Of a stretch of DNA of 28,379 bases, positions 1,404 to 25,936 are shown in pieces. Every line of letters starts with the position of its first letter. Position 1 is the stretch's first letter. The notes under the pieces are model-generated. The model made no database searches, was not told where the DNA came from, and saw nothing but the letters and a program-made list of their open reading frames with translations. The position numbers were made by a program, and so were the translations under genes. The DNA lies in IMG/VR virus record IMGVR_UViG_3300020187_000159, positions 1 through 28,379 of that record, one strand, 5' to 3'. Source of the DNA: a virus.

Positions 1404-2876
1404 ATGAATGACAAAAACAATTTAATACCTCTAACTAATTTAGATGAAGATATTAGAGGCGATCAGGTAATAGCTACACTCGATGGGGCATATAAGAGTG
1501 TCTATTTTGATAATACTAAAGATATGTTAGAGGGGCTAAATGAAGTTAGTCCTTCATTCTGTTTAGCTAAGTGGTTCAATGTTAGTATTCACATACCTAC
1601 AGGAAGAACTCATAGCTGTTATCACCCTCCTACTCACAAAGTTCCTTTAGAAGAATTAAAAGAAAATCCTGGTGCCTTGCATAATACAAAATATAAAAAA
1701 GAACAGAGAAAAAAAATGTTATTGGGTGAGAGACCTGACGAATGTTCCTTTTGTTGGCAACTCGAAGATGCTGGCAACATGTCAGATAGGGCGTACAGAA
1801 GTTTTGATGTGAATGCAGAGGGAGTAATAGAAGAAGCCCTTTCACACGGTGTATCTGGAAATCCTTCTCCCAAATATCTTGAAGTCAATTTTAGTCAAGC
1901 ATGTAATCTAAAGTGTGCGTATTGTTCTCCCCACTTGTCCACAGAATGGCATAAAGAAGTCAAGCAACACGGAGCATATATTTTAACTGATAGGTCACAT
2001 AATGATCCTTCTTTTCTGATGGGTGAAGGCGGGTGGGCCCCTGATAATTCGTTAGATAATCCCTATCTGTTAGCATTTTGGGATTGGTTCCCAACAGTTT
2101 ATAGTGAGTTGCAAACATTTAGAATGACGGGCGGCGAGCCACTGATGGATAAGAATACATTCAAAATTTTTGATTATGTAAAAAAGAATCCGTCTGACAA
2201 GTTACATTTGAGTATTACAAGTAACTGCTGTCCGCCAAAGAATCAATGGCAAAAATTTATCACTGACCTCAAAGAAATTACTGATGTCAATGCCATAGAT
2301 CATTTTATGTTATATTGTAGTTTAGATACTTGGGGCGAACAAGCAGAATACATTCGAACAGGAATGGACTTTGATGTGTTACATAAAAATGTTATTCAGT
2401 ACTTAACAGAAAGCGAAAGACATTCACTAACATTTATTGTAACCTGCAATCTTTTATGTCTTCCTAGTTTTCCTAAACTATTTGAAAACATTCTAAAACT
2501 AAGACAGACATATAACACAGATCGACAGTTAGTATGGTTTGACACTCCTATGTTACACGATCCAAAGTGGATGAGTATGAAACTTGCATCAAAAGAGATG
2601 TTACATCCGCTACTAAATATAATAGAGTTTATGCAAGAAAATAAAGAGACCACTATAAATCGTTATAAGGGATTTAAAGACTACGAGATAGATAAGTTAC
2701 AGCGACTATATGATTGGGCAGCAGAGCCTATGCAACCAGAAGAAGAAATTCTCCATAAGAAAAACTTCATTGCTCACTTTAGACAGCATGATGAAAGAAG
2801 AAATACCAATTTGAAAACAATGTTCCCAGAAATATTGCCATTTATAGAAGAATGTGAGGCCTTGATTGATGAGTAA
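1404..2876 (+). CDS. Radical SAM protein 1 with N-terminal twitch-like domain (subtype A)
   Basis: 490 residues. The core cluster motif C-x3-C-x2-C is at C167/C171/C174 (CNLKCAYC) and the SAM-binding GGEP is at 243-246. Before the core is a cysteine-rich domain (C53, C72, C114, C117, with conserved His in SCYHPPTH) that could hold an auxiliary Fe-S cluster; this placement fits the N-terminal twitch radical SAM family. Later landmarks are EYIRTGMDFDVLHKN and the C-terminal DERRNTNLKTMFPE block shared by all seven paralogues. It has about 30 extra N-terminal residues compared with the next two proteins. It should cleave SAM to the 5'-deoxyadenosyl radical; the substrate is unknown. The next gene starts inside its 3' end. 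Confidence 0.9.
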   Translation: MNDKNNLIPLTNLDEDIRGDQVIATLDGAYKSVYFDNTKDMLEGLNEVSPSFCLAKWFNVSIHIPTGRTHSCYHPPTHKVPLEELKENPGALHNTKYKKEQRKKMLLGERPDECSFCWQLEDAGNMSDRAYRSFDVNAEGVIEEALSHGVSGNPSPKYLEVNFSQACNLKCAYCSPHLSTEWHKEVKQHGAYILTDRSHNDPSFLMGEGGWAPDNSLDNPYLLAFWDWFPTVYSELQTFRMTGGEPLMDKNTFKIFDYVKKNPSDKLHLSITSNCCPPKNQWQKFITDLKEITDVNAIDHFMLYCSLDTWGEQAEYIRTGMDFDVLHKNVIQYLTESERHSLTFIVTCNLLCLPSFPKLFENILKLRQTYNTDRQLVWFDTPMLHDPKWMSMKLASKEMLHPLLNIIEFMQENKETTINRYKGFKDYEIDKLQRLYDWAAEPMQPEEEILHKKNFIAHFRQHDERRNTNLKTMFPEILPFIEECEALIDE

Positions 2877-4380
2877 CGAAAACAGTTTATTAGAATATAG
2901 GAAAAGAGTAGTTGATGAAATCAGTCCATCATTCTGTGGAGCTAAATGGTTTAACGCTACAATTTGGCTAGGTCACGGTCAAACTGCTTCTTGTCACCAT
3001 CCACCGTCACATGCAATTGATCTTGAAGAACTCAAGGACAATCCTTCGGCTATTCATAACACCAAGCACAAAAAAGAAATGCGTAAGATGATGCTCCATG
3101 GTGTTCGCCCCAACGAATGTGAATACTGTTGGAAAATTGAAGACATGGGCAAAGATCATATCTCTGACCGTGTGATGAAGTCTTTAACCTTTAAGGATGA
3201 AGAAAACTTTTCGACTGAAGAAATGGGCTGGGATGCTGATGTCAATCTAAAGACATTAGAGATAAGTTTCGACCGTACATGTAATTTTTCTTGTTCATAC
3301 TGCAATCCTTCGTTCAGTTCGTCTTGGGTGAAAGATATTAAGAAAAACGGTCCTTATCAAAACATTACAAGTGACGGCAGAGACCATTATGTTTCTACGC
3401 ACGAGTATTCAGCTAATGCTGCTGCTAAAGAAGAAGATAATCCATATATTCAAGCATTTTGGAAATGGTTCAATAGCGAGTTACAGTACGAGTTAAGAGA
3501 ACTCAGAATTACTGGCGGAGAACCTTTGATGGCAGCTTCTGTATGGAAACTGTTTGATTGGTTCAGAGATAATCCTGAACGTGCAGAAACTTTAAAGTAT
3601 GCAATTAATTCTAACTTAGTTCCGAAGAAAGAATTAATGGATAGATTAGTTGCCTCGTCTAAGAGTGTGCCTTTTCTTGACATATACACTAGCCAAGAAG
3701 CCACTGGAGCAATTGCTGAATACATTCGTGATGGTCTTGATTATGACCAATGGTTAGCAAATGTTGAACGACTAATTACTGAAGGCAAAGTAAATCAAAT
3801 CGTTTGTATGTCTACTATTAATAGCTTATGTTTGCCTGGTCTAGTTGACTTCATGGAAACTGCTAGAAAAATTAAAAGAAAGTATGGTAGACAGTATCTT
3901 ACTACTTCTTTGAATATGCTCAGATTCCCAAGTTTTCAGGCAGTAGCTATCTTGCCTCCTGAAATTAAAACTAAGTATAAGATAGAAATTGAAAACTGGT
4001 ATAAAGAAATAGTGTCAGTTATGAAAATTGATTTAGACCCATTTGGTATTCAGTTGTATTCAGAATGGGAATTGTCTCAAATCGAAAGACTTATTGACTA
4101 CTTAGATGTTATCAAAACTCCTCATTCGTTTACTGCAACTACTGACAAGTTATACAATGACTTCAGGCAGTTCTTTTTACAATATGACGAAAGAAGAGGT
4201 AAAAACTTTAGAGAAGTATTCCCGAAAGAGTATGTTGATTTTATAGACAGTATTCCAGATCCTACTCCTGATGAATCGAGAGCAAATTTAATTCCTTTGG
4301 TACATGTTCAAGATCCAGCTCCAGATCATATGACTGGCGGCGGCTATATAAGCGATGAGTTAAAAAATGGAAAGGAATGA
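2869..4380 (+). CDS. Radical SAM protein 2 with N-terminal twitch-like domain (subtype A)
   Basis: 503 residues from ATG at 2869, eight bases inside the upstream gene; a TTG one codon earlier is less likely. The radical SAM motif is C138/C142/C145 (CNFSCSYC), with GGEP at 216-219. N-terminal cysteines C23, C42, C84 and C87 align with those of the neighbouring genes (ISPSFCGAKW, SCHHPPSH, CEYCW). EYIRDGLDYDQWLANV and DERRGKNFREVFPKEY complete the shared signatures. A roughly 40-residue C-terminal tail rich in Asp, Pro and Gly is unique to this copy and contains NLIPL, also present at the N-terminus of radical SAM 1. Closest relatives by eye are the flanking proteins, which suggests tandem duplication. 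Confidence 0.9.
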   Translation: MSNENSLLEYRKRVVDEISPSFCGAKWFNATIWLGHGQTASCHHPPSHAIDLEELKDNPSAIHNTKHKKEMRKMMLHGVRPNECEYCWKIEDMGKDHISDRVMKSLTFKDEENFSTEEMGWDADVNLKTLEISFDRTCNFSCSYCNPSFSSSWVKDIKKNGPYQNITSDGRDHYVSTHEYSANAAAKEEDNPYIQAFWKWFNSELQYELRELRITGGEPLMAASVWKLFDWFRDNPERAETLKYAINSNLVPKKELMDRLVASSKSVPFLDIYTSQEATGAIAEYIRDGLDYDQWLANVERLITEGKVNQIVCMSTINSLCLPGLVDFMETARKIKRKYGRQYLTTSLNMLRFPSFQAVAILPPEIKTKYKIEIENWYKEIVSVMKIDLDPFGIQLYSEWELSQIERLIDYLDVIKTPHSFTATTDKLYNDFRQFFLQYDERRGKNFREVFPKEYVDFIDSIPDPTPDESRANLIPLVHVQDPAPDHMTGGGYISDELKNGKE

Positions 4381-5776
4381 CCAGTTATTAAAATTTAAAG
4401 AAATAGTTCTTGATCCTATCAGCCCTTCTGTGTGTAGTGCTAAGTGGCTAGAGACTACGATGTGGTTATATGACGGAGTAACTGCGTCTTGTCATCATAA
4501 CCCTTCTCACAAAATACAACTAGATCCAAATGATCCGTCGTCTTTGCATAATACTGCACAAAAAATAAATGAAAGAAAAGCTATGTTAGCAGGAGAAAAG
4601 CCTAGCGGATGTAGTTATTGTTGGAACACAGAAGATAATAATAGTATTAGTGATAGATACAGAAAGTCTCATGCACACAAAACTGCTATGCTTAAAATAC
4701 CTATGGAATTAGAAAGTGATACTGAATTATCTACCGCCAGTAAAGCGTATCAGAAAAAAGTTTTCACCAGTGTAAATGATGCATCTCCTACACATCTTGA
4801 AATTGCTTTTAGCAGAGTGTGCAACTTAGGTTGTATGTATTGTGGTCCATATTTTAGTAATACATGGGCGAACGATATCAGGGTAAACGGTCCATATGAG
4901 ATCCGAGATAAGAATCATTATGATACAAGATTCGAAGATTGGATGCCTGAAATTAAAGATGAAGAAGACAACCCCTATATAAAAGCATTTTTCCAATGGT
5001 GGCCAGAATTAAAAAAGACATTGATGAATTTGAGATTTACAGGCGGTGAACCTTTTTTACATGCAGCGATGTGGAAATTTTTAAAAGAAGCAGTATCTGA
5101 TCCCATGTATAAGGGAGATATATTAATAAATTCTAATCTGATACACAATAGAAAATTATTAGAAAAGTTTATTGATATTGCAAATATACCAATTATAGGC
5201 AGTGAAAACAAATTACGAAAATTTCAAATTCATACTAGTTGTGAAAGTAGTTTAACTGATTCTGAATATATTCGTGATGGGTTTGATGGTAAGGTTTGGC
5301 TAGAAAATGTAAATACACTGTTGTCTTCGGTGCCCAATTTAAAAATAACAGTCACTACTGCAATAAATAATATTGCAATTTGGTCATACGATGATTATAT
5401 TGATACTATAATTGACTTGAGGTTAAAATATGGCAGTCATCGAATCAATCTAAATTCTAACCGAGTATTTCATCCGGTCTATCAACAAATAGCAATGATT
5501 GATATCGAGCGGCGAATGAAACTGAAAGATATGCTTATTATTAGCAGAAAAAAATTAAAAGATTCTGGTGTCTCTAATAAATATGATTTCGATCAATTAG
5601 ATTCTTTGATAAATTATACGGGAGAGCTACATACCTCTTCACATGACTCCGCTGAAGAGAAAGCGTTGATTAAATTTTTAGATGAATATAATATCAGAAG
5701 AAATAAAGACGAAACTACACTGTCCGCCGGATATCTAGATTGGATTTATGAACTAAGAGAAAGACATGATAAATAA
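4367..5776 (+). CDS. Radical SAM protein 3 with N-terminal twitch-like domain (subtype A)
   Basis: 469 residues, overlapping the upstream gene by 14 bases. The motif is C152/C156/C159 (CNLGCMYC), GGEP at 226-229, N-terminal cysteines C23, C42, C82 and C85 in the same pattern as the two preceding paralogues (ISPSVCSAKW, SCHHNPSH, CSYCW). An insertion of about 35 residues lies between the N-terminal domain and the core. EYIRDGFDGKVWLENV is present; the C-terminal signature is degenerate (EYNIRRNKDETTLSAGYLDW), making this the most diverged of the three subtype A copies. All catalytic landmarks are intact, so it is probably active. Substrate unknown. Confidence 0.9.
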   Translation: MERNDQLLKFKEIVLDPISPSVCSAKWLETTMWLYDGVTASCHHNPSHKIQLDPNDPSSLHNTAQKINERKAMLAGEKPSGCSYCWNTEDNNSISDRYRKSHAHKTAMLKIPMELESDTELSTASKAYQKKVFTSVNDASPTHLEIAFSRVCNLGCMYCGPYFSNTWANDIRVNGPYEIRDKNHYDTRFEDWMPEIKDEEDNPYIKAFFQWWPELKKTLMNLRFTGGEPFLHAAMWKFLKEAVSDPMYKGDILINSNLIHNRKLLEKFIDIANIPIIGSENKLRKFQIHTSCESSLTDSEYIRDGFDGKVWLENVNTLLSSVPNLKITVTTAINNIAIWSYDDYIDTIIDLRLKYGSHRINLNSNRVFHPVYQQIAMIDIERRMKLKDMLIISRKKLKDSGVSNKYDFDQLDSLINYTGELHTSSHDSAEEKALIKFLDEYNIRRNKDETTLSAGYLDWIYELRERHDK

Positions 5777-7052
5777 GCCAGAAAATTTGTGTCTCATACC
5801 CTGGCTAGGATTTAGTAATAATCCTAATGGAGTTGCTCAGCCGTGTTGTATCTACAAAGGAAACATAAAAGACGAACTAGGTAATGATTTGTATGTACAA
5901 AAAACTGCTGTAAAAGATATTTTTGCTTCTGATTATATGCAAAATTTACGACAGGCATTTCGAGAAAATAAAAAACCTGTTGGTTGTGAAACTTGCTGGA
6001 AAGACGAAGCTAATGGGTATCGAAGCAAAAGAATGATATACAGTGAAAATGGTTTCTTTACAGATCCCAACTATGATGGACAGGTGGATTGGAAAGAAGA
6101 GCCAGAGTTCCCGCAAGAATATCAAATGATTATAAACAACAGTTGCAACTTGAAATGTAGATCATGTGGACCTAGCCACAGTTCGTTGTGGCAACAAGAA
6201 AATGTAAAGTTTGATGGTAATTCTGGTTTTGACATGCCATTCAAGCAAGCAGGTGATAAGCAAGGTGAATTGTGGAATACAAGACATGAATGGTATCCAC
6301 ATTTGCGGCACTTAGAAGTAGTAGGGGGAGAGCCAATGTTTATCAAGCAGTGGCATAAAGTATTTGATGAATTGATTGAATTGGGGCATTCAAAAAACAT
6401 TACGCTTGACATGAGTTCTAATTGTACTATAATTATACCAGAACTGCTATTAAAATTAAAACGAAATTTTCGCCGAGTTGGTATAGGGTTGAGCGTTGAT
6501 GGGACAGAAGATATTTATGAATACTTGAGGCATCCTGGTAAGTGGGATGAAGTATATTCTAATATGAAATTTTATAATGATTTTCATGTAGAGAATTGTA
6601 CCGGAGATCATCAAGTTTTGCTGCATCCATATAATGACAACCTAAACATTCAAGTCACATATACTATTGGCTGGTTGAATGCGTTAGATTTGATCAAAAT
6701 ACACAAATTAGTAAAAAAAGAGTTTCCTAGATTTAAAAAAATATGGAATAATATAATACATTGGCCAGAATTTATGTCAATTAACAATGCGCCAGAAGAA
6801 TTGAAAATTCTTATATCACACGAATGGGGCAGCTATGATTGGGGCGAATATGAAAATGATATTAATGCAATTGAAGATTTTATGTTTTCTACAGTAACTT
6901 CTCCAGAAGAATTTAAAAGACATTATGGTCAATTTGGCACAGTAGATACCAAAAGAAATGAAAATCTTTGGAATGTGATGCCAGAAAAATACAAGCCTCT
7001 GTTAGAAAAATATACTCACAATAGAGAAATAATCACTAACTATGAAAAATAA
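5766..7052 (+). CDS. Radical SAM protein 4 with N-terminal twitch/SPASM-like domain (subtype B)
   Basis: 428 residues, overlapping the upstream gene by 11 bases. The N-terminal domain follows the subtype B pattern: C9, then CC at 27-28 (AQPCCIYKG) and CETCW at 74-78. This resembles the usual C-terminal SPASM/twitch cluster domain moved to the N-terminus. The core motif is C127/C131/C134 (CNLKCRSC) and the SAM-binding motif is GGEP at 187-190. EYLRHPGKWDEVYSNM and the C-terminal KRNENLWNVMPEKY are the family signatures. It marks the switch from subtype A to B inside the gene array. Reaction and substrate unknown. Confidence 0.9.
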   Translation: MINKPENLCLIPWLGFSNNPNGVAQPCCIYKGNIKDELGNDLYVQKTAVKDIFASDYMQNLRQAFRENKKPVGCETCWKDEANGYRSKRMIYSENGFFTDPNYDGQVDWKEEPEFPQEYQMIINNSCNLKCRSCGPSHSSLWQQENVKFDGNSGFDMPFKQAGDKQGELWNTRHEWYPHLRHLEVVGGEPMFIKQWHKVFDELIELGHSKNITLDMSSNCTIIIPELLLKLKRNFRRVGIGLSVDGTEDIYEYLRHPGKWDEVYSNMKFYNDFHVENCTGDHQVLLHPYNDNLNIQVTYTIGWLNALDLIKIHKLVKKEFPRFKKIWNNIIHWPEFMSINNAPEELKILISHEWGSYDWGEYENDINAIEDFMFSTVTSPEEFKRHYGQFGTVDTKRNENLWNVMPEKYKPLLEKYTHNREIITNYEK

Positions 7053-8451
7053 AATAAATTATACAGATAAAGAATGGGATGATATAAAAAATAACGGTGC
7101 ATATTGTCCAGCACTGTTTAACTCCCTATATCTAAGTCCACAAAGTCAAATAACTAATTGTTGCGTGATGCAAGAGCATGATATGGATTCTGCACCAGTT
7201 GTTACTTCAGATCAAAAAGATATACCGGTAGTAGACCTATTAAATCAAGATTACTTCAGGAACGTAAGAAAAGATGCATTAAATGGCATAAAAAATGAGG
7301 CATGTAATCATTGTTGGAGATCACAAAAACATACACCGGAAAAAGAATATCGACAGACTTTTATTAAATTTTCTAAAAATTTAGACGAACAGATAAGAAA
7401 TAGTGTTTATGAAGATTATACTATAGACTTTAATGTTGTCGAAATGGAACATATGGATGTTAGATTCAGCACACTCTGCAACTTATTATGTAGATCGTGT
7501 TCTAGTGTATTTAGTAGTTCTTGGTATAAAGAAGACTTGGAATATGATAAAATAACCAGATCCCACGAGAAAAATACAAAATGGAAACATGGACTAGCTT
7601 TCAAACCAGGCGCCGCCAGTCTTTCAGTCGAATCTATTATTCCACACTTAGACACAGTGAAAAGACTTTACTTTGCTGGCGGCGAGCCAGTTATGCTAAC
7701 CGAACATTACGAAATCCTTCAATACCTAATAGACACTGGAAGAACAGATGTTAAGTTGTCCTACAATACTAACTTCAGTAAATTAATTTCCGGAAAAAAA
7801 GATATTATACCCTATTGGAAACAGTTTAAAAATATTACGATAGGTGCCAGCCTAGACGGGTCTCACGAGAAGGGTGAGTATATTAGGAAAGGCATTGTTT
7901 GGTCTGAAGTAGAAGAAAATATACAAAGATTGAAAAAAGAGTGTCCTCACATATATTTTTATGTGAGCCCCACCGTGAGTATACTAAACGCATATAATAT
8001 TACGGAATTTCACAGGGAATGGTACGAAAAAGGATATATTAAGATAAACGATTTTAGACTAAATGTATTGTATGGTCCTGAAGCATATTGTTTAGCAAAT
8101 TTACCCAGAAATCATAAAGATGCTTTAATAAAATTATATACAGAACACATCGAATGGATTTTTAAAACTTCACCAGAAACCAAGCTAATGAATTCTACTA
8201 GTCATGATATTATGACAGTATCTGACTATAATAGATTGATAAAATTTATTGACGAAACGCCAGCAAGTCCCGATTGGAAAGATAGTTGGTTTAAACATTT
8301 CTGGACAGATAAAAATAGAAAAGAAAACTTTTTTGAAATATTGCCCGAATACGAAGACTTGAAGCCCATGTTAATAGACAATTTAAAGGATAAACATTTT
8401 GACATCTCGAAAGAAATTCTTATAGAAGTGAAAAACATATATGAAAGCTAA
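7042..8451 (+). CDS. Radical SAM protein 5 with N-terminal twitch/SPASM-like domain (subtype B)
   Basis: 469 residues, 11-base overlap with the upstream gene. N-terminal cysteines are C22, CC at 40-41 (TNCCVMQ) and CNHCW at 88-92. The catalytic motif is C146/C150/C153 (CNLLCRSC), with GGEP at 213-216. EYIRKGIVWSEVEENI and NRKENFFEILPEY match the array-wide signatures. The segment between the core motif and GGEP is about 60 residues, as in the other copies. It is the last of five consecutive radical SAM genes; the oxygenase-like gene starts within its 3' end, so the enzymes are translationally coupled. Confidence 0.9.
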   Translation: MKNKINYTDKEWDDIKNNGAYCPALFNSLYLSPQSQITNCCVMQEHDMDSAPVVTSDQKDIPVVDLLNQDYFRNVRKDALNGIKNEACNHCWRSQKHTPEKEYRQTFIKFSKNLDEQIRNSVYEDYTIDFNVVEMEHMDVRFSTLCNLLCRSCSSVFSSSWYKEDLEYDKITRSHEKNTKWKHGLAFKPGAASLSVESIIPHLDTVKRLYFAGGEPVMLTEHYEILQYLIDTGRTDVKLSYNTNFSKLISGKKDIIPYWKQFKNITIGASLDGSHEKGEYIRKGIVWSEVEENIQRLKKECPHIYFYVSPTVSILNAYNITEFHREWYEKGYIKINDFRLNVLYGPEAYCLANLPRNHKDALIKLYTEHIEWIFKTSPETKLMNSTSHDIMTVSDYNRLIKFIDETPASPDWKDSWFKHFWTDKNRKENFFEILPEYEDLKPMLIDNLKDKHFDISKEILIEVKNIYES

Positions 8452-8986
8452 TCTAATATCAAAAGATTTTGCAGTGTGGGAAATAGAAGAATTCGATTTA
8501 CCAGAAGTTTCTTTCGAAGACGGCGAAGTGTACGAACAAGGAGCTAATGATCCTCGATTAAGAAACACTGTACATATACCTGATGCTGATGAAAGTAATT
8601 CGTTTTATTCTGTGTGGAATAAACATACAGATTTACTAGAGAAACAAATAAAAAAAGATAGCATTAATAATTTAACTGTTTGGCAAATGTGGATCAATGA
8701 AGTAGAAAATTTTAAATGGGGCGACTCTGGTACAGTGAGAATCCTTTCAGACTCCCCAGGATTTAATATGCAATATCATGTTGATAACCGCTTAATTTTT
8801 GGAGTGCTTCTTATCAATCTTATTGACAACACCGATTCTACTGTATTTGAAAATGGATACGTGGCGCCTTCAAAAAAAGGCACAGGAATATTCATGATGA
8901 ATAATAATGATTATCATAAAATAGATGTTACTTCAGATAGACTTATAGGATATCAAACATTAGCTGTAAATAAGTGCCTAGTATGA
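8441..8986 (+). CDS. 2OG-Fe(II) oxygenase-like protein
   Basis: 181 residues. The second half reads like the double-stranded beta-helix of Fe(II)/2-oxoglutarate oxygenases: H113-V-D115 (YHVDNRL) as the first two metal ligands, H159 (DYHKI) as the third, and R167 eight residues on as a possible 2-oxoglutarate carboxylate anchor. The order HxD...H...R and the spacing fit this family. If so, it would hydroxylate or desaturate a substrate using O2 in the cytoplasm. It overlaps radical SAM 5 and the dehydrogenase, both by about 4-11 bases. A non-catalytic cupin is the main alternative. The assignment rests on motif order only. Confidence 0.6.
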   Translation: MKANLISKDFAVWEIEEFDLPEVSFEDGEVYEQGANDPRLRNTVHIPDADESNSFYSVWNKHTDLLEKQIKKDSINNLTVWQMWINEVENFKWGDSGTVRILSDSPGFNMQYHVDNRLIFGVLLINLIDNTDSTVFENGYVAPSKKGTGIFMMNNNDYHKIDVTSDRLIGYQTLAVNKCLV

Positions 8987-9639
8987 ATATAGTAATAATA
9001 GGTCCTGGCAATGATGAGAACAGGTTTGGACGACAATTTGTAAATTTAGCAAAAAAAGATTTACATACGGTACACGAATTCTCATTTAGGACTATAAATG
9101 AATCGCCCCAAGAAATTGCTATTAGATTCAAAGAATTTATTTCAGAAATAGATACAATTAATGTCATGTTGTATAATGTTATGGCAGGGCATTATCCCGG
9201 TAACATATCAAATTTCGAACATACACATCCAGTTAATTTTGAAGAATGGAATGACACATTTATATGTAATGTTTCTTTGCCACATATGTTCTCTTTATCC
9301 TGCTTATCTAAAATGAATGAATCTTCTAGTATTATTTTTATGACTTCTACTGGATCTTATATGCCGCCCAAAGATTTAAATCTTTCGAAATATGCTGGCT
9401 ATTTTGGATCTAAATCGGCACAAAATCATTTGATGTGGGCTTTATCGGATCACAACGACAAAAAAAGTACAGTGTGTTCTATTGCTCCTCATTTCCCGTA
9501 TGAAGATAAGGTAATATCAAATAAAGTAATTTCGTCAACATATAATAAGATAATAAACATAACAAGTGCAGATAGTGGTAAAATATTTGCGTGTTGCCCA
9601 CCCTTGGGCAATATTTTCGTAGAGGAATTAAGAAAATGA
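8983..9639 (+). CDS. Short-chain dehydrogenase/reductase
   Basis: 218 residues from ATG at 8983, which overlaps the upstream stop as ATGA; a GTG nine bases earlier is less likely. The N-terminus is a Rossmann strand and glycine-containing turn (MNIVIIGPGN). CNVSLP (95-100) matches the conserved Asn region of SDRs, serines at 122/125 (MTSTGSY) precede Y140-x3-K144 (YFGSK), the classical catalytic Tyr and Lys. The glycine motif is unusual (GPGNDENRFGR rather than TGxxxGIG), as in diverged SDRs. It probably reduces or oxidises a carbonyl/hydroxyl on the cluster's product with NAD(P)H. Confidence 0.75.
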   Translation: MNIVIIGPGNDENRFGRQFVNLAKKDLHTVHEFSFRTINESPQEIAIRFKEFISEIDTINVMLYNVMAGHYPGNISNFEHTHPVNFEEWNDTFICNVSLPHMFSLSCLSKMNESSSIIFMTSTGSYMPPKDLNLSKYAGYFGSKSAQNHLMWALSDHNDKKSTVCSIAPHFPYEDKVISNKVISSTYNKIINITSADSGKIFACCPPLGNIFVEELRK

Positions 9640-10763
9640 CATTAGATAATGAAAGATTTTTTATTGAATTTTCAGATGGTGATAATCGATGGGATCCATT
9701 TGTTTTATATTTCAATGTAGCACAAAATAATATAACTGCATTTTGGAAAGAATGTTTTATTAAAAATTATATGGGATCAACAGAAGAAAATGATAATCCT
9801 CATTTACTAGACAAGCGATACATGCAAAGAGGATACACTGAAATATCTAGAAATATTGAAGTTGCATGTATAGAAATGAATTATGCCATTAACATCATCA
9901 ACACAAATTTAAATCCGGTAGGATATCCATTCATCGACTTAGAATTTACTCCTGAAAAAGTGAAAAATAAAGATATATATCGTGACCTTATGAATCAAAT
10001 ACATCACCAGTTCGAACTTTTAATTGGACAGGTATGGAATTTGAGTGATTGGTATTTAGATGCTGATGAAAAAACTCGCTGGGCAATTCACCAAATAAAC
10101 AATTATTGTCACGAAATAGAGTCGTATGTAGATGCTGAAAGTGATCTTGATGAAGGATTGGTTTATGGTCAAACCGGATTAAATTTTTGTTGCAACCAAA
10201 ACCGAGATGGCATCAAACGACAAGGCTTTGAGTATTTTGATTTAAGAGAAGAACATCTTGGAGATTTTATGCCCCAAGATCATGGATGGGGAGTAATGAT
10301 TCCATATTACAGCCAATTAGGCAAAACTCCTAGAGAAGCTTTTATGGACAACGATGAACATATTGATAAGAATAATATAACAGCTACTAGATATATGACA
10401 GGTGAAATAAACATTAGCTTGGCTGGTCCAGGTGTGGGACAAGGAATTATCACACCTGTACCTCTAGAAGGCGAGGAAATGATATTTAAAGAATGGCTAG
10501 AATCTAAAGGCTGGGATTATCATGATCCTTCTCTATGTATAGGCACGGCAATTATGGGACAGGTAGATTTTTCATTGTATCCAGGATCAACGTGGAAAGA
10601 TTTAGACTCTCTAGTAAAAAGATGTGATAATATAACTGAAATCGGGTTTGTTGATGAAAATATGAATAAAGTATTAAGTCAAAGATACGATTATACCTGG
10701 CAAGAGCAATATCAAGCTGAATTAGATTACTTTGGTCTAACAAATCCTCACTCACCAGAATAA
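9636..10763 (+). CDS. Unrecognised 375-residue protein of the radical SAM operon
   Basis: ATG at 9636 overlaps the SDR stop (ATGA); a GTG start 45 bases upstream would overlap the SDR more deeply and is less likely. The product is soluble and acidic, with no signal peptide or membrane helix. It is rich in aromatic residues and has His-containing segments (NQIHHQFELLIGQVW; DHGWGVMIPYYSQLGKTP) and a conserved-looking SLAGPGVGQG turn. I do not recognise the family. It sits between the oxygenase/SDR pair and two more radical SAM genes with almost no intergenic space, so it is probably part of the same pathway, as an enzyme, scaffold or substrate carrier. Confidence 0.75.
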   Translation: MTLDNERFFIEFSDGDNRWDPFVLYFNVAQNNITAFWKECFIKNYMGSTEENDNPHLLDKRYMQRGYTEISRNIEVACIEMNYAINIINTNLNPVGYPFIDLEFTPEKVKNKDIYRDLMNQIHHQFELLIGQVWNLSDWYLDADEKTRWAIHQINNYCHEIESYVDAESDLDEGLVYGQTGLNFCCNQNRDGIKRQGFEYFDLREEHLGDFMPQDHGWGVMIPYYSQLGKTPREAFMDNDEHIDKNNITATRYMTGEINISLAGPGVGQGIITPVPLEGEEMIFKEWLESKGWDYHDPSLCIGTAIMGQVDFSLYPGSTWKDLDSLVKRCDNITEIGFVDENMNKVLSQRYDYTWQEQYQAELDYFGLTNPHSPE

Positions 10764-10767
10764 CATT

Positions 10768-11886
10768 ATGAAAGATACTTTTTGCGTATTGCCATATATA
10801 CATGCAGTGTATAATCCATATGATTCTTCTAAAGAAGACTGTAGTGTACTTCCTTGTTGCAGATATGACTTTATGCATGAAACAGAGAATTCCGTTTCTC
10901 ATGAGCCTATAAAAAATTCTGAAATATTTCAAAGATTGCAAACAGAGCTTAGTAGTGGAGTGCAGTCTAAAGGATGCTGGCGGTGCTGGAAAGATGAATC
11001 TATAGGCATCCGGAGTTATAGGCAAGCAAATAATGAAACTTTTTCTGATGTAATTGAATCGGGTGAATATGCTGAAAAACAATTAAGATTTTTAGAAATC
11101 GTTCCTAGTAATGCATGTAACTTAGCGTGTTTGTCTTGCAACTCTGTTCTTTCTAGCAAATGGGTTCCTATTGATAACTTCATAGCTTCTGACAAAAAGA
11201 AGAACACTATTGAATTCACAGATTGGCGAACTCTTGATTTGTCCGGATTAACATATCTAAAGTTGATGGGCGGCGAGCCAATGTTTCTCAAGGACAATTT
11301 AGCGTTGTTGCAGCATCTATCAGTCAATGGTATGCTGAAGAATATTGACTTGCTTGTCATCACTAATTTAATGAATCCGCTAACTGAGAAGTGGAAGGAC
11401 TTGTTTTCAGAATGTAAATCAGTTATGATGTGTGTTAGTATAGATGCAATAGGGCCTCTTAATGAATATATTCGTGCAGATTCTAAATGGGACAGAGTGG
11501 AGAGCAACTTACAAGCTATGTTGGAGTTTTCAAAAAATATTGATATGCAAGTTTTTGTCAATACTGTTATTAGTATCTACAACGTAAACAAGTCCTTGGA
11601 AATTGAAAATTATTTTAAAGATATAAATGTACAAGCATCACAAGACCTTACTAGTTATCCTTTACATATTGATTCTAAGAGATTGCCTACTAAAATAAAA
11701 AAACAGCTTTTGGATTCGAACTGTCTTTCAAAAACAGTAATAGATAATTTAAATTTTGTTGATCAAAAAGATGGATTGATAGAAGAGTTTTTTCAGCATA
11801 CTGACGTATTAGATAAATATCATAAACGAAAGTTCGAAGATTACAACCCAGAGATGGCTAGACTACTGAGAGAAATAAATGAGTGA
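10768..11886 (+). CDS. Radical SAM protein 6 with N-terminal twitch/SPASM-like domain (subtype B, short)
   Basis: 372 residues, the shortest of the seven, starting four bases after the upstream stop. N-terminal ligands: C6 in FCVLPYIH, C25, CC at 30-31 and C70/C73 in GCWRCW. The catalytic motif is C117/C121/C124 (CNLACLSC), with GGEP at 168-171. EYIRADSKWDRVESNL is clear; the C-terminal block is reduced (HKRKFEDYNPEMARLL). The shorter length comes mainly from the region after the SAM-binding half-barrel. The FCVLPxxH opening is shared with the next gene, suggesting these two are a pair from a separate duplication. Confidence 0.9.
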   Translation: MKDTFCVLPYIHAVYNPYDSSKEDCSVLPCCRYDFMHETENSVSHEPIKNSEIFQRLQTELSSGVQSKGCWRCWKDESIGIRSYRQANNETFSDVIESGEYAEKQLRFLEIVPSNACNLACLSCNSVLSSKWVPIDNFIASDKKKNTIEFTDWRTLDLSGLTYLKLMGGEPMFLKDNLALLQHLSVNGMLKNIDLLVITNLMNPLTEKWKDLFSECKSVMMCVSIDAIGPLNEYIRADSKWDRVESNLQAMLEFSKNIDMQVFVNTVISIYNVNKSLEIENYFKDINVQASQDLTSYPLHIDSKRLPTKIKKQLLDSNCLSKTVIDNLNFVDQKDGLIEEFFQHTDVLDKYHKRKFEDYNPEMARLLREINE

Positions 11887-13180
11887 CTCCTCAAGCTGGA
11901 CAGGTCCAGATAGATATTTTAAGAAAGACAATAAAACTTTTTGTGTCTTACCTTTTGTACATATACATGTAGATACTGACGGTATATACAAGCCTTGTTG
12001 TGTAAGTCCTCGTGGATTGTCGCAGGCAGAGGGGCACATGGGTGATGTCACTAAAATTCCTGTCGAAGAGATATTTAACAGCGATGAGATGAAAAAATTT
12101 AGACTTGATGTTTTGAATGGAGTTTCTAGACCAGACATATGTGACACTTGTTATCAAGGAGACGCAGGCGGCTTTAGCACATACAGAACAGGACAAAACG
12201 AAAACTTAAATGATTTGATTGAGTCTAGTATAGAAGCTATGGAGGCCGACGGATATTTAGAACCTAAACTAAAAAGTTGGGACATTCGTTACAGTAATCT
12301 ATGTAATTTAAAATGCAGAACATGTGGCGATCCTTACAGCACTACTTGGTCAAAGGAAGAAGAGAACTTTAATGGCGGTACTTACACTGAATTGAAAGCA
12401 TTTGAAGAAGGCAAAGATCCTTTAGAGAATCAATATGAAAATGTAGAAAAGATATACTTTGCAGGCGGTGAGCCTATGATTATGCCCGAGCATTATGCAG
12501 CATTAACTAAGCTGATTGACATGGATCGTGCTAAAGAGATTCAATTATATTATAACAGCAACATGACTAAACTAAATTACAATAAACATTATATGCCTGA
12601 TTATTGGAAAGAGTTCAAAGAGGTGCGAATCGGATTAAGTATAGATCATTACGGAGATAGGGCTAACTACATACGAAACGGGTCTGTCAAATGGAATAAA
12701 ATTGAAACTAATATAAGGACATTGAAAGGATACCCTAATTTAAAATATTGGATTCAACCTACCATTAGTCTAATGAATGTGTATACCTTGACAGATATGC
12801 ACAAATATTTTTTTGAAAACAATTTAATACCTGATGTAAATAGTATAATGTTTAATATATTATACAATCCTCAACACTGGTCTGTTAAAATATTACCGAG
12901 AAATATTAAAAACGACATACAAGAAAAGATTCGTGTTCACGTTGAGTGGTTCACAGAAAACGGTGGGGCTCCCCCTGCTATAGAACAGTTTATTACTCTA
13001 TCAAAGTATCTTGACGAATCTTTTGAACTAGAACAAGAAAATAGATTCATCAGAGATTTTATCTTTAGGACTAATCAACTAGATTCATTTAGAAACGAGT
13101 CCTTTCCAGAGACCTTTCCTGAATACAGAGAATGGTGGGAAGAAATATCAAAAGATATTATAGCGGTGTCTAATATATGA
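11879..13180 (+). CDS. Radical SAM protein 7 with N-terminal twitch/SPASM-like domain (subtype B)
   Basis: 433 residues, eight-base overlap with radical SAM 6. It has the clearest SPASM-like N-terminus: FCVLPFVHIHVDTDGIYKPC then C41, followed by EEIFNSDEMKKFR and C88/C91 (CDTC), the order seen in C-terminal SPASM domains of peptide-modifying enzymes. The core motif is C142/C146/C149 (CNLKCRTC), GGEP at 196-199. NYIRNGSVKWNKIETNI and FRNESFPETFPEY are the shared signatures. Catalysis should be intact. The overlapping start of the sulfotransferase-like gene shows the operon continues. Confidence 0.9.
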   Translation: MSDSSSWTGPDRYFKKDNKTFCVLPFVHIHVDTDGIYKPCCVSPRGLSQAEGHMGDVTKIPVEEIFNSDEMKKFRLDVLNGVSRPDICDTCYQGDAGGFSTYRTGQNENLNDLIESSIEAMEADGYLEPKLKSWDIRYSNLCNLKCRTCGDPYSTTWSKEEENFNGGTYTELKAFEEGKDPLENQYENVEKIYFAGGEPMIMPEHYAALTKLIDMDRAKEIQLYYNSNMTKLNYNKHYMPDYWKEFKEVRIGLSIDHYGDRANYIRNGSVKWNKIETNIRTLKGYPNLKYWIQPTISLMNVYTLTDMHKYFFENNLIPDVNSIMFNILYNPQHWSVKILPRNIKNDIQEKIRVHVEWFTENGGAPPAIEQFITLSKYLDESFELEQENRFIRDFIFRTNQLDSFRNESFPETFPEYREWWEEISKDIIAVSNI

Positions 13181-16394: not shown

Positions 16395-17249
16395 ATGATA
16401 GATAAAATATTTATACCTACTGTTAATCGTGTTGACAATCAGATTACTTATGACAATTTGCCAGATGCATTGAAGTCAAAAGTAACTATGGTTGTTCAGG
16501 CATGGGAAAGAGAAAAATATGATTATGATTGTGATTATTTGATTCTTCCTGATAATGATGAATATCATTTCAGCCACTACTATTGCATATCAAAAACTAG
16601 AAAGTTTATATATGAAGCTGGACAAGATATCAAGTACGCCGTTTTAGATGACGATTTGTTATTTGGCAGAAGAAATTCCAAGTACTGGACTGGCATTTCT
16701 AACATGAAAAAGTCAAAGAGAAAGTCTACTGAACAAGATGTGATTGATATGTTTGCAATGTACAGTGATTGGTTAGACGAAGAAAATACCACAATTTGTG
16801 GATGCTCTCATTCAGAGAACCCACCAGGCAACAAAGCCTTTTCACGAAATAGTTCTTTGGGCAGCGCATTATGGATAAACGGCAAAGACTTTAAAGACGA
16901 ATTATCAGAACTTGATTTGACATCTGTTAAAGTTATGGAAGATACTTATTTTCTGTTGCAGCTATTGAGTAGAGGATACGGAAATAAAGTTAGTGAAGAA
17001 TTTATTTTTTTCAATCAAAGTGTTCATAAAAAAAGCATAGCGTCAACAATATGGGATCAGCAAACTTTTGAAAATACACTAAAGGATCATCAAATTGTTG
17101 AGAAAGCTTTTCCAGGAATATTTACAATACTGTATGATGAAAATGGTGAGCGAGTACAGGGTGGTTTCAGAGATTACGGCAAAGTAAGGGTGCAGTGGAG
17201 TAAAGCTTACAATAAAAAAGTAGAGTCTTTAGAACACCTATTTATTTAA
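16395..17249 (+). CDS. GT-A-fold glycosyltransferase-like protein
   Basis: 284 residues. The N-terminus (DKIFIPTVNRVDNQITYDNL) and a following strand are typical of nucleotide-sugar-binding GT-A folds, and YAVLDDDLLFGRR at 81-93 contains a DDD that can serve as the metal-binding DxD. RKFIYEAGQDIKY before it is the usual helix. Phage proteins of this shape include glycosyltransferases that decorate modified DNA bases and others that act on surface glycans; I cannot tell which. No hydroxymethylase or other base-modification gene is in the window. No clear ribosome-binding site was seen. Confidence 0.55.
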   Translation: MIDKIFIPTVNRVDNQITYDNLPDALKSKVTMVVQAWEREKYDYDCDYLILPDNDEYHFSHYYCISKTRKFIYEAGQDIKYAVLDDDLLFGRRNSKYWTGISNMKKSKRKSTEQDVIDMFAMYSDWLDEENTTICGCSHSENPPGNKAFSRNSSLGSALWINGKDFKDELSELDLTSVKVMEDTYFLLQLLSRGYGNKVSEEFIFFNQSVHKKSIASTIWDQQTFENTLKDHQIVEKAFPGIFTILYDENGERVQGGFRDYGKVRVQWSKAYNKKVESLEHLFI

Positions 17250-19329: not shown

Positions 19330-20193
19330 ATGAATGAAGAAAATATAAACGCAAGAATAGTAGTCACAGGTGGATGTGGATTCATAGGATCTCACCTCGT
19401 GTACCGGCTTGCTGAAATTGGATTTGAAGTCACTGTTGTAGACGATATGCGACAAGGAGATTATGTATTTGATCTTCCGACTGTTAGATATATATTTGAA
19501 GATGTTTCTAAATGTAATCTTACCGAGATAATAAACAGACCGCTTGCTATCATACATCTAGCAAACAGTCCTAGAGTTCGTAGGTCACTTGAAGAGCCAA
19601 GAGATACTATTGACAATAACATTACTACAACTACTGCGGTATGTGATTGGGCAAGACACTGGCAGACATTTTTGTTCTTTGCCACTTCTTCTAGCACACA
19701 GTATAAAGATTCGGTAAATCCTTACACATGGAGCAAAGCAGCGTGTGAAGGTATCTTAGATTTGTATGAAGAACTTTATAATTTAAAGTTTACGAAAATG
19801 TTCTTCTACAATGTTTATGGACCAGGAGAAGCAGACTATGGTCCATACAGTACAGTAATAAGAAAGTTTAAGAAAGATTATTTGGCGGGTGAATCTCTTA
19901 CCATTTTCGGTAACGGAAGTAAAGAAAGAGATTTCACTCATGTAGACGATGTTGTACAAGGCATATTGCAACTGCTAGTAGACGAGAGACACTCAAAGGA
20001 AGTACATTTCGGCAAAGGTGATCCCAAGTCTATAGTATCAATTGCTCAAGCATTCAACACTCCAATCGTTCACAGTTTTGATAAACCGGGTGAAGCACAG
20101 ACTACTATCTGTAAAACACCTTATATAGAATGTCCTAATGATGTATTCTCATATATTGAGAATTGGTTGACGGAGAACACGATTGACAATTAG
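19330..20193 (+). CDS. NAD-dependent nucleotide-sugar epimerase/dehydratase
   Basis: 287 residues of the extended SDR family. NAD-binding GxxGxxG is G14/G17/G20 (TGGCGFIGSHLV), followed by VVDDM for the adenosine ribose; serines at 120-122 (FATSSST) and Y132-x3-K136 (YTWSK) form the catalytic set. NVYGPGE and the RDFTHVDDVV motif are characteristic of UDP-glucose 4-epimerase-like enzymes that bind nucleotide sugars. Its length is slightly short for the family. It may supply a modified sugar for host surface or virion glycosylation, possibly for the glycosyltransferase-like gene at 16395. It overlaps the gp33 gene if that uses the TTG start. Confidence 0.85.
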   Translation: MNEENINARIVVTGGCGFIGSHLVYRLAEIGFEVTVVDDMRQGDYVFDLPTVRYIFEDVSKCNLTEIINRPLAIIHLANSPRVRRSLEEPRDTIDNNITTTTAVCDWARHWQTFLFFATSSSTQYKDSVNPYTWSKAACEGILDLYEELYNLKFTKMFFYNVYGPGEADYGPYSTVIRKFKKDYLAGESLTIFGNGSKERDFTHVDDVVQGILQLLVDERHSKEVHFGKGDPKSIVSIAQAFNTPIVHSFDKPGEAQTTICKTPYIECPNDVFSYIENWLTENTIDN

Positions 20194-22239: not shown

Positions 22240-24357
22240 TTATCTAGTTCCATTCGATTTGAATTGTGACAACGAATTGCTGTTTTCTCTACTTGAAGAA
22301 GGATTTACGAGTATTGGTTGTTGACTTCCTCCGCCTCCTCCACTCGTATTGTTATTTGTAGTATTGTAAATGTTTGTAATATTATTTGTGGTAACACTGC
22401 CAGCAGCATCAGTCATATTTGCAACAGCATCCGCAGTTGGTGTAACCGAAACTTGCGCTTCCTGTGAGTTTGGCATAATTTCAGCTGAGGTTTGATTTAC
22501 AGGAGGCTTTTCTGTGACTCCAAATCTAGATTCATCAGCTTGATTGAGAACCAAATTTTGTCCACTTGAAGAAACAGTAGTAGAAGCTTCACCGCTATCT
22601 AACTGGCTAAGTCTTTCTATTACTCTGTTAGTATCTTTTTCTGATAAATCCTCGTCAGCGAGTATGGCATTGAGTTGAGCAGTATCAGTAGTTTGCTTTA
22701 GAATTTCAGGATCAATCTCACTGTCGCCTACCCAGTCTTTATCGTAAAGGCCACTTTCTATTGCAGCGTCTAATGCAGCTTCACCTGATGTAGTAGTAGC
22801 GGCGTCTCCTATAGCTTCACCAGCAGCAGATCCACCAAAATAACCAAGTGTACCGCCTATAGCTCCCCCCAAGAAACCACCAATTGCTGCACCTGGCGCA
22901 GCACCAACTCCAAAGAATAATGATCCTATTGCCGCTCCTGCAGTTGCACCATAACTAGCCCCGACTCCTCCCGCTGCTATAGCTCCTGCTGTTCCTCCAG
23001 TTGCACTCGTTACTGCTTCTACCTTTCCCGCAGTCTCGTCTTGTTCAGTGAACGCCTGTCCAGTCTCTTTATTCATAGCACCAGATTCAACTAACTGATC
23101 TGCGTCTTTGTAACCAGTGTAGGCGTCATATGCGCCCATTCCTACTGTCAAAGGAATTGCTGCTCTACTTAGAAATCTACCTGTGCCACCAAGGACTTTA
23201 CTAGCAATACTAGTGCCACGAACAGCATCGTCAGCTACGTTTGTTCCAGCTCTTGCAACATCGTCAGCTACGTTAGTAAAAGCATCTTTCGGAGATACTA
23301 TTTGGCCGTTACTAGCATTATACGGGGCGCCTGCACTGTTTAATTTAAACCCAGGCTTTAGAGTAGGTTTGACTGAAGCAGGATTGACAGGAACATCATC
23401 TGCAAATCCTAATGCGCTTTTAATTCTGCTGAATCTACTTGGCTTAGTATTGGTGGGCGGTCTAGTACTTCTAGGTACTCCACCACGTAAATTAGTACTA
23501 CCAGGAAGTAAAGGTGGAAATCCAAAACCACCACTACTATTGTCTGACATTTTTTTTAGTTCTGCTAGAATTTCCTCAAGAAGTTCTACTTTTTTATTAT
23601 CTAGGGATTCTCTATCAATACCAGAAACAAACGTATTACCTCCTTCTGCATTCTTTTCAATTGTTGATGGAGTATCGCTTTCTGTTGTAATTCCAAGTTG
23701 TTCTACCGTATTAAGCATCCCATTGGATTGGTTTATATTCTCACGTTCAGCTTCTACATCTTCTCTTTGCTTCTTTATGACATCATCCGCAGAAGGTTTT
23801 AGGCCAAACATTTTTTCCATAGTAAATGCTTGTTTGAACGAATCCTTGAATCCAAGACCCTCGTCTGTTTTCATCATTTTTCGCCAAGCGGTACCACCTA
23901 CACTTCCTCGACCCACATCGCTGGCTAAAGTCTTTTGAGCTTTATCTAAGCCAAATTTTTCTACTAGTTCATCACCTTGATCGCCGGCAGCACTTCTTAT
24001 TCTTTCTACTTGTTTTATTAAGTCTTTGATTGCAGCTACGCTTGCTTTGCCTGTTTTTTGCTGCGCCGCTGCCATTTTTGTCATGAGAGAAGCTAATTCT
24101 TTCTTTGTTTCATCGCCCTGGTTTTCAATTATGTCTTGTATATCTTTTGTATTTTCGCCTAAGCTTTTAGCAATATCAGAAGAGACCTGAGAAATTTTAT
24201 TTGTCTTTATTCCTTCTGGCTTGCCCACATTCATTGCCGATCTAATATTAGTACTAAGTAACTTTGCACCATCACTAGTAAAGCGACCATCTGTCATGTC
24301 TCTTACTGACCCGCCGTCGAAACTTGGATCTAGTAAATTTTTAGATACTCTAAGCAT
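22240..24357 (-). CDS. Tape-measure/baseplate-hub-like tail protein
   Basis: 705 residues. The N-terminal third is helical and polar (coiled-coil-like, QGDETKKELASLMTKMAAAQ); residues about 445-530 are Gly/Ala-rich and hydrophobic (GAIAAGGVGASYGATAGAAI...), as in tape-measure proteins that insert into the membrane on DNA ejection; the C-terminus has Asn/Thr and Gly runs (TTNNNTSGGGGG). Its position, directly after the tail-assembly gene pair and overlapping it by TAATG, is where tail phages encode the tape measure and where T4 gp29 would be expected in function. Sequence identity to gp29 is not evident by eye. A hub or other long virion protein is the alternative. Confidence 0.6.
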   Translation of the reverse strand: MLRVSKNLLDPSFDGGSVRDMTDGRFTSDGAKLLSTNIRSAMNVGKPEGIKTNKISQVSSDIAKSLGENTKDIQDIIENQGDETKKELASLMTKMAAAQQKTGKASVAAIKDLIKQVERIRSAAGDQGDELVEKFGLDKAQKTLASDVGRGSVGGTAWRKMMKTDEGLGFKDSFKQAFTMEKMFGLKPSADDVIKKQREDVEAERENINQSNGMLNTVEQLGITTESDTPSTIEKNAEGGNTFVSGIDRESLDNKKVELLEEILAELKKMSDNSSGGFGFPPLLPGSTNLRGGVPRSTRPPTNTKPSRFSRIKSALGFADDVPVNPASVKPTLKPGFKLNSAGAPYNASNGQIVSPKDAFTNVADDVARAGTNVADDAVRGTSIASKVLGGTGRFLSRAAIPLTVGMGAYDAYTGYKDADQLVESGAMNKETGQAFTEQDETAGKVEAVTSATGGTAGAIAAGGVGASYGATAGAAIGSLFFGVGAAPGAAIGGFLGGAIGGTLGYFGGSAAGEAIGDAATTTSGEAALDAAIESGLYDKDWVGDSEIDPEILKQTTDTAQLNAILADEDLSEKDTNRVIERLSQLDSGEASTTVSSSGQNLVLNQADESRFGVTEKPPVNQTSAEIMPNSQEAQVSVTPTADAVANMTDAAGSVTTNNITNIYNTTNNNTSGGGGGSQQPILVNPSSSRENSNSLSQFKSNGTR

Positions 24358-24515
24358 TATTGATTACTCTTTTGTTTGTCCGCTTTTTTCTTTAAATGTG
24401 TTATTAGCATACCAACATAAACCTCTCTTTCCCAAGGCATCATATTTTCTAACTCGGTTAAACTGTAATGATGTTCTTGCATTAACAAAAAATTCGTTTT
24501 GTAATAATTTTCCAT
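24357..24515 (-). CDS. Overlooked 52-codon tail-assembly frame, probably made as a -1 frameshift extension of gp26
   Basis: On the minus strand ATG at 24515 opens MENYYKTNFL... and closes at TAA 24359-24357, which overlaps the ATG of the tape-measure-like gene (TAATG). The product includes HHYSLTELENMMPWEREVYV followed by GMLITHLKKK, a Leu-Tyr/Trp-rich helical pattern seen in the second part (T) of tail-assembly chaperones. No ribosome-binding site precedes the ATG. The same frame is open upstream to the slippery heptamer in gp26, adding RLTLSQDS, so a gp26-T fusion of about 289 residues can be made. A 64-codon ORF in another frame here (24364-24558) is treated as a shadow. Confidence 0.75.
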   Translation of the reverse strand: MENYYKTNFLLMQEHHYSLTELENMMPWEREVYVGMLITHLKKKADKQKSNQ

Positions 24516-24532
24516 CGAATCTTGAGAAAGAG

Positions 24533-25225
24533 TTAGCCGAAAAAATGTTCGTACCCATTTATCACAGTAGTATTTTTAGTATCACATTCTGTGCAGGTAT
24601 AGTCAACTTTATGAATCAACGATGGAATATTTTGAAAGAATTTGGCAGCTTCTTCGAGTACACTTATTGGTAAACTGTCAATAAATTCAATCATTTCTTC
24701 TATTGTTTCTTCTTCTGGCTTTATAATTTCTTCTCCTTGATATACATAATCAATGGAATTTAATAATATTTCTATGTCCGTCAGTTCTTTTTCATTCATT
24801 TGAACTTCGGCAGAAGGATACTTTAACATAATTCCTGTATCTTCACTCAACTCTATTTTTTGTTCTACAATTTCTGGATCACCGATCACTTGAAATTCAG
24901 TTAGGTCCATGTCATAGTTTATTTGACCTTCACATTTACCACAACTCAATATAAAAGACTGAATATTTCCTACAGACTTTGACCTCAGCTGCAAAAATAT
25001 CCATTGTAGCTGATACATTGCAAGACTTTTCGCCTCTATCTTTCCCAGAGAACAATTTTCTACAACTTGACAACAAGCAGAATACATATCTGCTGTTTCT
25101 TCGGACGCTGTAGCAAGAGTTAATATTTTATTTTCTTTTACAAGAAAAGGTCTAAATTTAATTTTCCCTTTTATTCCGGGTACATCTAATTCAAAAGTTG
25201 GTACATCAATTACAGGTAATGCCAT
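24533..25225 (-). CDS. gp26: gp26-like baseplate hub/tail assembly protein
   Basis: 230 residues from ATG at 25225, with GGAG six bases upstream; a TTG twelve bases earlier is less likely. The opening MALPVIDVPTFELDVPGIKG is typical of the T4 gp26-type baseplate family. Two CxxC pairs (C95/C98 in SCGKC and C211/C214 in CTEC) could bind zinc. The region of about 145-200 is acidic and helical (EEETIEEMIEFIDSLP). In T4, gp26 belongs to the baseplate hub. It lies immediately before the tape-measure-like gene, the position held by tail-assembly chaperones in other phages. Its last codons contain a canonical frameshift site. Confidence 0.75.
   Translation of the reverse strand: MALPVIDVPTFELDVPGIKGKIKFRPFLVKENKILTLATASEETADMYSACCQVVENCSLGKIEAKSLAMYQLQWIFLQLRSKSVGNIQSFILSCGKCEGQINYDMDLTEFQVIGDPEIVEQKIELSEDTGIMLKYPSAEVQMNEKELTDIEILLNSIDYVYQGEEIIKPEEETIEEMIEFIDSLPISVLEEAAKFFQNIPSLIHKVDYTCTECDTKNTTVINGYEHFFG
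24539..24545 (-). promoter_or_regulatory. Predicted -1 ribosomal frameshift site (U UUU UUC)
   Basis: In the gp26 zero frame the codons are CAT TTT TTC GGC TAA, giving the heptamer T TTT TTC (X XXY YYZ) two codons before the stop. A -1 slip reads CGG CTA ACT CTT and continues without a stop into the 52-codon frame. Placement and sequence match programmed sites in tail-assembly chaperone genes. Confidence 0.7.
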
Positions 25226-25249
25226 TATATTCTCCAATAGTATAATATA

Positions 25250-25936
25250 TTATTTTGTTTTGAAAAAATCACTCTTGCCAGACAATGCGTCCAACCAAGA
25301 TCTAGCTTTTGCTTTATCTGAAAACTCAAAATCTGGCAGTCTTCGTTCTTCAAGTGGGGCTTCTTCTACTTCATATGGATCAATTCCCACTTCATCGTAA
25401 ATTCTTACCCATTTTTTAGCAGAAAAAGAAATTGACATTCTCATGAGTCCTTGGTTACTCCAAGAAACTGGTGTCAAGTTGATTAGTTTAGGTGTTGCAT
25501 CAATTAATTTCCATGCAGCTAGAACATCATCTTTGGTGCTTAGTGATTTTATAGTAATATCTGCCACATAGTCAGTATAATATCTGACCTCTTTACTATT
25601 TGGATTCGCAGCAAGTGAGATCCAATCTTCAAACAATTCTCTACCAGAAAACAATTCATCCACTAAGAAGGTAAACGACATTTCTGTTGTTAAAAATTCT
25701 ATGTTCTGAGTTCTATATTCTGTCCACGCACCGATCTTTATGGGCAAGTTAGTTGCTGCAAGACCAGGTATTTGAGCCTCTTCACAGTACATGCTTATCG
25801 TTCGCATAAAATCTGGTGAAGTACCTATCAACGGCGGCGGTAAATTGAATACGACCTCAAATCTATCAGACCGCGGAGTGTGTTGAGTTCTTATCTGTGT
25901 TAAGAAATTTTCGTATTTGGTTTGTGACTTAGCCAT
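25250..25936 (-). CDS. Tail-tube-fold protein (gp19/gp54-like)
   Basis: 228 residues. RSDRFEVVFNLPPPLIGTSP, then MYCEEAQIPG, and the later ISFSAKKWVRIYDEVG follow the strand pattern of myovirus tube proteins, including the 'CEEAQIPG' turn common in T4 gp19 and its baseplate relatives. Because it is encoded among baseplate genes rather than next to a sheath gene, it is more likely a baseplate tube initiator (gp54- or gp48-like) than the main tube subunit. It overlaps the preceding gene by eight bases and precedes gp26. Confidence 0.7.
   Translation of the reverse strand: MAKSQTKYENFLTQIRTQHTPRSDRFEVVFNLPPPLIGTSPDFMRTISMYCEEAQIPGLAATNLPIKIGAWTEYRTQNIEFLTTEMSFTFLVDELFSGRELFEDWISLAANPNSKEVRYYTDYVADITIKSLSTKDDVLAAWKLIDATPKLINLTPVSWSNQGLMRMSISFSAKKWVRIYDEVGIDPYEVEEAPLEERRLPDFEFSDKAKARSWLDALSGKSDFFKTK

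Follow-up and report, generated by a model that had tools for sequence, protein, structure and literature searches.

A candidate programmed -1 frameshift joining gp26 to the gp51 domain ahead of a tape-measure-like gene in a T4-like viral genome

The tail assembly chaperones (TACs) of lambda (G/GT), P2 and Mu-type phages are made by programmed -1 frameshifting (Xu, Hendrix & Duda 2004; PMC5009743). The present analysis concerns a comparable locus in a viral DNA of 28,379 nucleotides (nt) (IMG/VR record IMGVR_UViG_3300020187_000159, positions 1 to 28,379; the whole of it is termed the window), where the gene gp26 ends in the slippery sequence U_UUU_UUC and a hidden -1 frame lies between it and a tape-measure-like gene. 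Lambda uses heptamers other than U_UUU_UUN. In T4, gp26 and gp51 are two genes on opposite strands and have no slippery site, whereas the window carries a single gene with a site.

A 2022 study by Vladimirov, Gautam and Davidson (Virology 566:9-15) reportedly deals with the tail assembly chaperone genes of T4-like phages, and its title stresses a mechanism other than frameshifting. As cited in one later paper, that study identified the T4-like chaperone genes, with some T4-like phages having a short gene and a long fusion gene (PMC10885494); another refers to it for the polyT slippery sequences of TAC-N genes in T4-like phages (PMC12846349). The original prediction for this locus held that no such description was known for the T4-type gp26. 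Going by these citations, both the T4-like chaperone family and poly-T slippage within it appear to have been described in 2022. The gp26/gp51 pair of that study is taken to be the same gene pair as here, with the difference that marine relatives and the window have one gene, unlike T4. In phage Adele (Vandenendeviridae/Andersonviridae), which belongs to other families, a -1 frame that is conserved downstream of a polyT motif, where the chaperone gene ends, has been inferred by comparison; the motif, GTTTTT, resembles the Ackermannviridae sites described below and is unlike the tandem heptamer of the window (PMC12846349). A search of the literature for cyanophage ribosome profiling with a frameshift found nothing relevant.

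All features of the locus are on the minus strand. The gp26 reading frame (24533-25225, stop included) runs from an ATG at 25225 to a TAA at 24535-24533 and encodes 230 amino acids (aa), which in profile searches match PF12322 (E 1e-46, 159.9 bits against a cut-off of 24.5) and phrog_150 (E 4e-48). Its 3′ end reads CAT (24547-45), TTT (24544-42), TTC (24541-39), GGC, TAA. The heptamer T_TTT_TTC occupies 24545-24539, so placed that XXY and YYZ are zero-frame codons, the phase suited to a tandem -1 slip. Thus an X_XXY_YYZ heptamer in the zero frame is followed by an open -1 frame, as originally predicted, except that the heptamer and the stop are a single codon (GGC) apart instead of two.

After the heptamer the -1 frame (24357-24539) reads CGG CTA ACT CTT TCT and remains open for 60 codons; from base composition alone, the chance of 58 open -1 codons is about 0.004. 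Its stop, TAA at 24359-24357, overlaps the ATG (24357) of the tape-measure-like gene as TAATG, which agrees with the prediction. The hidden frame had been given as 52 codons, and these are indeed open (24515-24357). However, the ATG-initiated 52-codon open reading frame (ORF) is only the distal part of what a shift would add, and the whole belongs to a known family: the -1 frame matches phrog_634, the gp51 family annotated as "baseplate hub assembly catalyst" (E 7e-27), and it matches the end of phrog_150 as well. As judged by these profile matches, the hidden frame is the C-terminal domain of T4 gp51 and no new protein.

U_UUU_UUN is not rare in itself in this AT-rich genome, with 11 occurrences in 48 mechanically called ORFs, and therefore its conservation among relatives is the decisive evidence. 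The main set, chosen by the gp26 body, comprised 79 distinct loci on viral contigs. U_UUU_UUN is in frame in all 79 (50 UUUUUUC, 28 UUUUUUU and one UUUUUUA), and each has the gp51 domain in the -1 frame, beginning at the heptamer; related loci are not independent, and these counts cannot be converted to a p-value. Two of the three outcomes named beforehand as speaking against a frameshift were a heptamer disrupted by synonymous changes and stops in the -1 frame; the heptamer is intact throughout this set, and the gp51 domain occupies the -1 frame of every locus scored. The codon before the heptamer is of seven kinds (GAT, AAT, AGT, TCT, CAT, GCT and GGT), each ending in T. The distance from the heptamer to the zero-frame stop varies (7, 10, 16 or 31 nt), but the position of the heptamer is fixed. 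The distance of 31 nt, counted from the heptamer start, is displayed by Pelagibacter phage Mosig (L014:3001-3034) and one viral contig (L170); their short forms have extra codons beyond the site and the -1 frame is unaffected. A second gp26-selected set has the gp51 domain in the -1 frame in 56 of 56 loci and the canonical heptamer in 46 of 56.

The ratio of nonsynonymous to synonymous polymorphism (pN/pS) is 0.084 in the -1 frame and 0.40 in the last 50 codons of gp26, which indicates strong purifying selection on the hidden frame. A tblastn search with the -1 frame found 848 phage records, and most alignments begin at or just after the Phe codons of the heptamer, not at any start codon.

The comparisons make it very probable that programmed -1 frameshifting gives rise to a short and a long tail chaperone at this locus. 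The majority of ribosomes would read gp26 to its stop, yielding the short form, and a minority would slip one base back at U_UUU_UUC, with re-pairing of both Phe-tRNAs. The slipped ribosomes would go on in the -1 frame and produce a long form that carries the 60-residue gp51 domain. If the parallel with lambda G/GT holds, the tape-measure protein encoded by the next gene may be coated by the short form, the long form may use its C-terminal domain to recruit the tail tube or hub protein, and both forms may depart before the virion is complete. That slippage takes place in this phage, its rate and the chaperone role are inferences.

The second frame could instead be an independent small gene, the gp51 "baseplate hub assembly catalyst", initiating at an ATG of its own through translational coupling with the gp26 stop. 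In many GenBank records gp51 is annotated as a separate coding sequence, and in the window an ATG is present about 18 nt past the gp26 stop. However, this ATG, at 24515, is preceded by TCTTTCTCAAGATTCG, for which the duplex with the anti-Shine-Dalgarno sequence is about -0.7 kcal/mol, as compared with the GGAGA (25231-25235) that serves as the gp26 ribosome-binding site, equivalents of which are strong in 72% of relatives. A usable Shine-Dalgarno sequence was not found for any -1-frame start, with 0 of 142 loci below -6 kcal/mol, which bears out the predicted lack of a ribosome-binding site for the second frame; a good one would have been the third outcome to speak against a frameshift. In relatives the ATG is replaced by CTT, TTA, TTG or ATT, and conservation of the protein reaches the heptamer, upstream of any start. 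The in-frame fusion that forms gp51 in T4-type phages, described below, is also against a separate gene, which moreover leaves the invariance of U_UUU_UUN without explanation. A separate gp51 gene is therefore very improbable and was rejected for want of a Shine-Dalgarno sequence and a conserved start, and by present evidence the 52-codon ORF is not an independent gene.

The -1 product could also arise by slippage of the polymerase on the T run during transcription, and every canonical locus does have a run of at least six Ts. Slippage by bacterial polymerase usually needs T runs longer than six. The commonest form of the site is TTTTTTC, preceded by codons like GAT, AGT and CAT; its run is of six Ts only, and longer runs are not favoured (50 TTTTTTC against 28 TTTTTTT). 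In addition, there is an excess of RNA structure immediately 3′ of the site, as would be expected for ribosomal slippage: among the relatives, the 60 nt 3′ of the heptamer are more structured than shuffled sequences (mean z about -1.2 to -1.3, with flanks about 0), and about a third display striking stem loops with z < -2. Transcriptional slippage is likewise very improbable. A heptamer without any recoding, as a by-product of AT-rich codon use (the 11 occurrences noted above) and of the Phe-Phe pair conserved at the site, can be dismissed almost outright, since T TTT TTY encodes only 28 of 345 (8.1%) Phe-Phe pairs elsewhere in the same loci, and the -1 frame is always open and under strong purifying selection.

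Position, predicted fold and comparison with T4 all bear on whether gp26 is a tail assembly chaperone. Proteins of this type bind the tape measure and the tail tube and do not remain in the finished virion, and their longer form usually arises by a programmed frameshift near the 3′ end of the gene. The genes run in the order tail-tube-like gene, gp26, -1 frame and tape-measure-like gene, with gp26 directly preceding the last across the TAATG overlap. The tail-tube-like or tube-initiator-like gene upstream of gp26 (25250-25936) matches phrog_45, tail tube, with E 4e-23. The ORF downstream (22240-24357, 705 aa) has only weak PHROG matches, and is presumably a tape-measure gene as judged by its position, its length and a glycine-rich middle segment.

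For structure prediction gp26 and the gp51 domain were modelled apart; no single reading of the DNA yields the shifted fusion. The AlphaFold model of gp26 has a predicted local distance difference test score (pLDDT) of 92.5, and its top VIA-align match is the HK97 tail assembly chaperone, 2ob9_A, at a moderate Z of 7.6 with the next chain at 4.9. Residues 1-85 superpose on 2ob9_A with 83 of 107 positions aligned and a root-mean-square deviation of 4.1. Thus the N-terminal part of gp26 has a predicted TAC-N fold similar to that of the HK97 chaperone. The model of the gp51 domain consists of three helices (pLDDT 82.6), and Foldseek found no relative of it in the PDB. A sequence search against the PDB gave no useful match, and the gp51 domain alone gave nothing convincing against Pfam and NCBIfam. 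No sequence match of gp26 to lambda-type families was found; in comparison with these proteins gp26 is longer (230 aa) and has paired Cys motifs in its C-terminal part, both here and in T4. A short form and a longer form with a common N-terminus are indicated comparatively, by the heptamer, by selection on the -1 frame and by the T4 gp51 fusion. The proposal that in the T4 branch gp26 fills the place of the tail assembly chaperone, its short form corresponding to lambda gpG and the gp51 domain to TAC-C, is supported by the position before the tape-measure-like gene, the match to 2ob9 and the T4 gp51 fusion.

Several observations weigh against a frameshifted chaperone and should be set beside the above. 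Foldseek alone found no significant match for the gp26 model in the PDB, and 2ob9 was raised only by VIA-align re-ranking. The gp51 domain gives only weak sequence matches to other chaperone families, the best being phrog_37198 at E 0.015 (4 of 45). Some Ackermannviridae keep the -1 frame without a canonical heptamer. In this genome a stable structure 3′ of the heptamer was looked for and not found (z -0.3), and therefore the shift rate may be low; the shift may also rest here on the heptamer alone. A stimulatory 3′ structure is common and helpful, yet is not required in every known case of -1 frameshifting. The Ackermannviridae in question, Kuttervirus and relatives (L183, L184, L190 and L192-L206), have the gp51 domain in the -1 frame with sites AUUUUC, GUUUUC, GUUUUUC and CUUUUUC.

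T4 itself provides a further comparison. Both T4 gp26 and T4 gp51 match PF12322. T4 gp51 covers nearly all of phrog_150 and T4 gp26 ends at the phrog_150 C-terminal boundary; T4 gp51 also matches phrog_634 with its C-terminal domain, and JS98 gp51 likewise matches PF12322 and phrog_634. When gp26 is joined to the -1 frame, the resulting chimera can be aligned to the gp51 of T4 and of JS98 without a break at the junction. On this alignment, T4 gp51 is an in-frame fusion of the gp26 domain and the -1-frame domain. T4 gp51 is required and is absent from the virion, as expected of a chaperone (PMC3004832). T4 gp26 also weakly matches phrog_1140, the gp28 "baseplate hub distal subunit" family (E 0.0009), possibly a distant relation.

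Copy number is complementary to the shift site, i.e., one PF12322 gene where a site is present and two where it is absent. Fourteen named genomes have a single PF12322 gene and encode the gp51 domain in its -1 frame: S-PM2, S-CAM1, Mosig, Aeh1, phage 65, LPCS28, phi-pp2 (KVP40 species), DLP6, Desulfovibrio 7757, RL38J1 and four Ackermannviridae. Five others, T4, JS98, Aes508, phage 31 and PF-CE2, have two such genes and lack a slippery site. In the tree, which is unrooted, the two-gene proteins are split from all others by a branch with 99/98 support, and gp26 is not cleanly one clade. That the two-gene proteins fall on one side of this branch fits a duplication in the T4-type lineage. On balance we favour the view that -1 frameshifting at U_UUU_UUN is ancestral for the T4-like chaperone and was lost once in the T4-type lineage, by duplication and in-frame fusion of one copy (gp51) with the other remaining short (gp26). 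The ancestral arrangement would span Kyanoviridae and relatives, Pootjesviridae, Ackermannviridae-like phages and several Straboviridae (the KVP40 group, Aeh1, 65 and LPCS28).

In previous work cyanophage gp51 was reported to have about 20% of the usual length and to be missing in Aeh1 (Sullivan et al. 2010; PMC3037559). The Aeh1 gp51 domain reported as missing is present, unannotated, in the -1 frame (L016:2503-2683), and in Cronobacter phage LPCS28 (L181) it is likewise unannotated in the -1 frame.

A second in-frame TTTTTTC is present towards the 3′ end of the tail-tube-like gene (25262-25268, minus strand); it is not conserved in relatives, was rejected as a real site and is probably due to chance. 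Elsewhere in the window, 1404-13180 on the plus strand holds six or more genes, most of which overlap or adjoin one another, with products that match radical-SAM PHROG families, a cluster of paralogues that is unusual for a phage. Two further plus-strand genes hint at a modification of DNA or glycans: 16395-17249 encodes a glucosyl-HMC-glucosyltransferase-like protein (phrog_842, E 3e-18), and 19330-20193 encodes a nucleotide-sugar epimerase (phrog_540).

Hundreds of T4-like records in which gp51 is separate or missing probably hold the frameshifted C-terminal part of a chaperone. A frameshifted chaperone would explain both the short gp51 of cyanophages (about 20%) and its apparent lack in Aeh1 (PMC3037559). 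T4 gp51 has been described as essential but of unknown function; a role as the long form of the chaperone is proposed for it. If the ancestral view is true, a recoding signal has been replaced by gene duplication, which the 2022 study may already say. The complementary one-gene and two-gene arrangements provide a natural experiment on whether a fixed ratio of short to long form matters.
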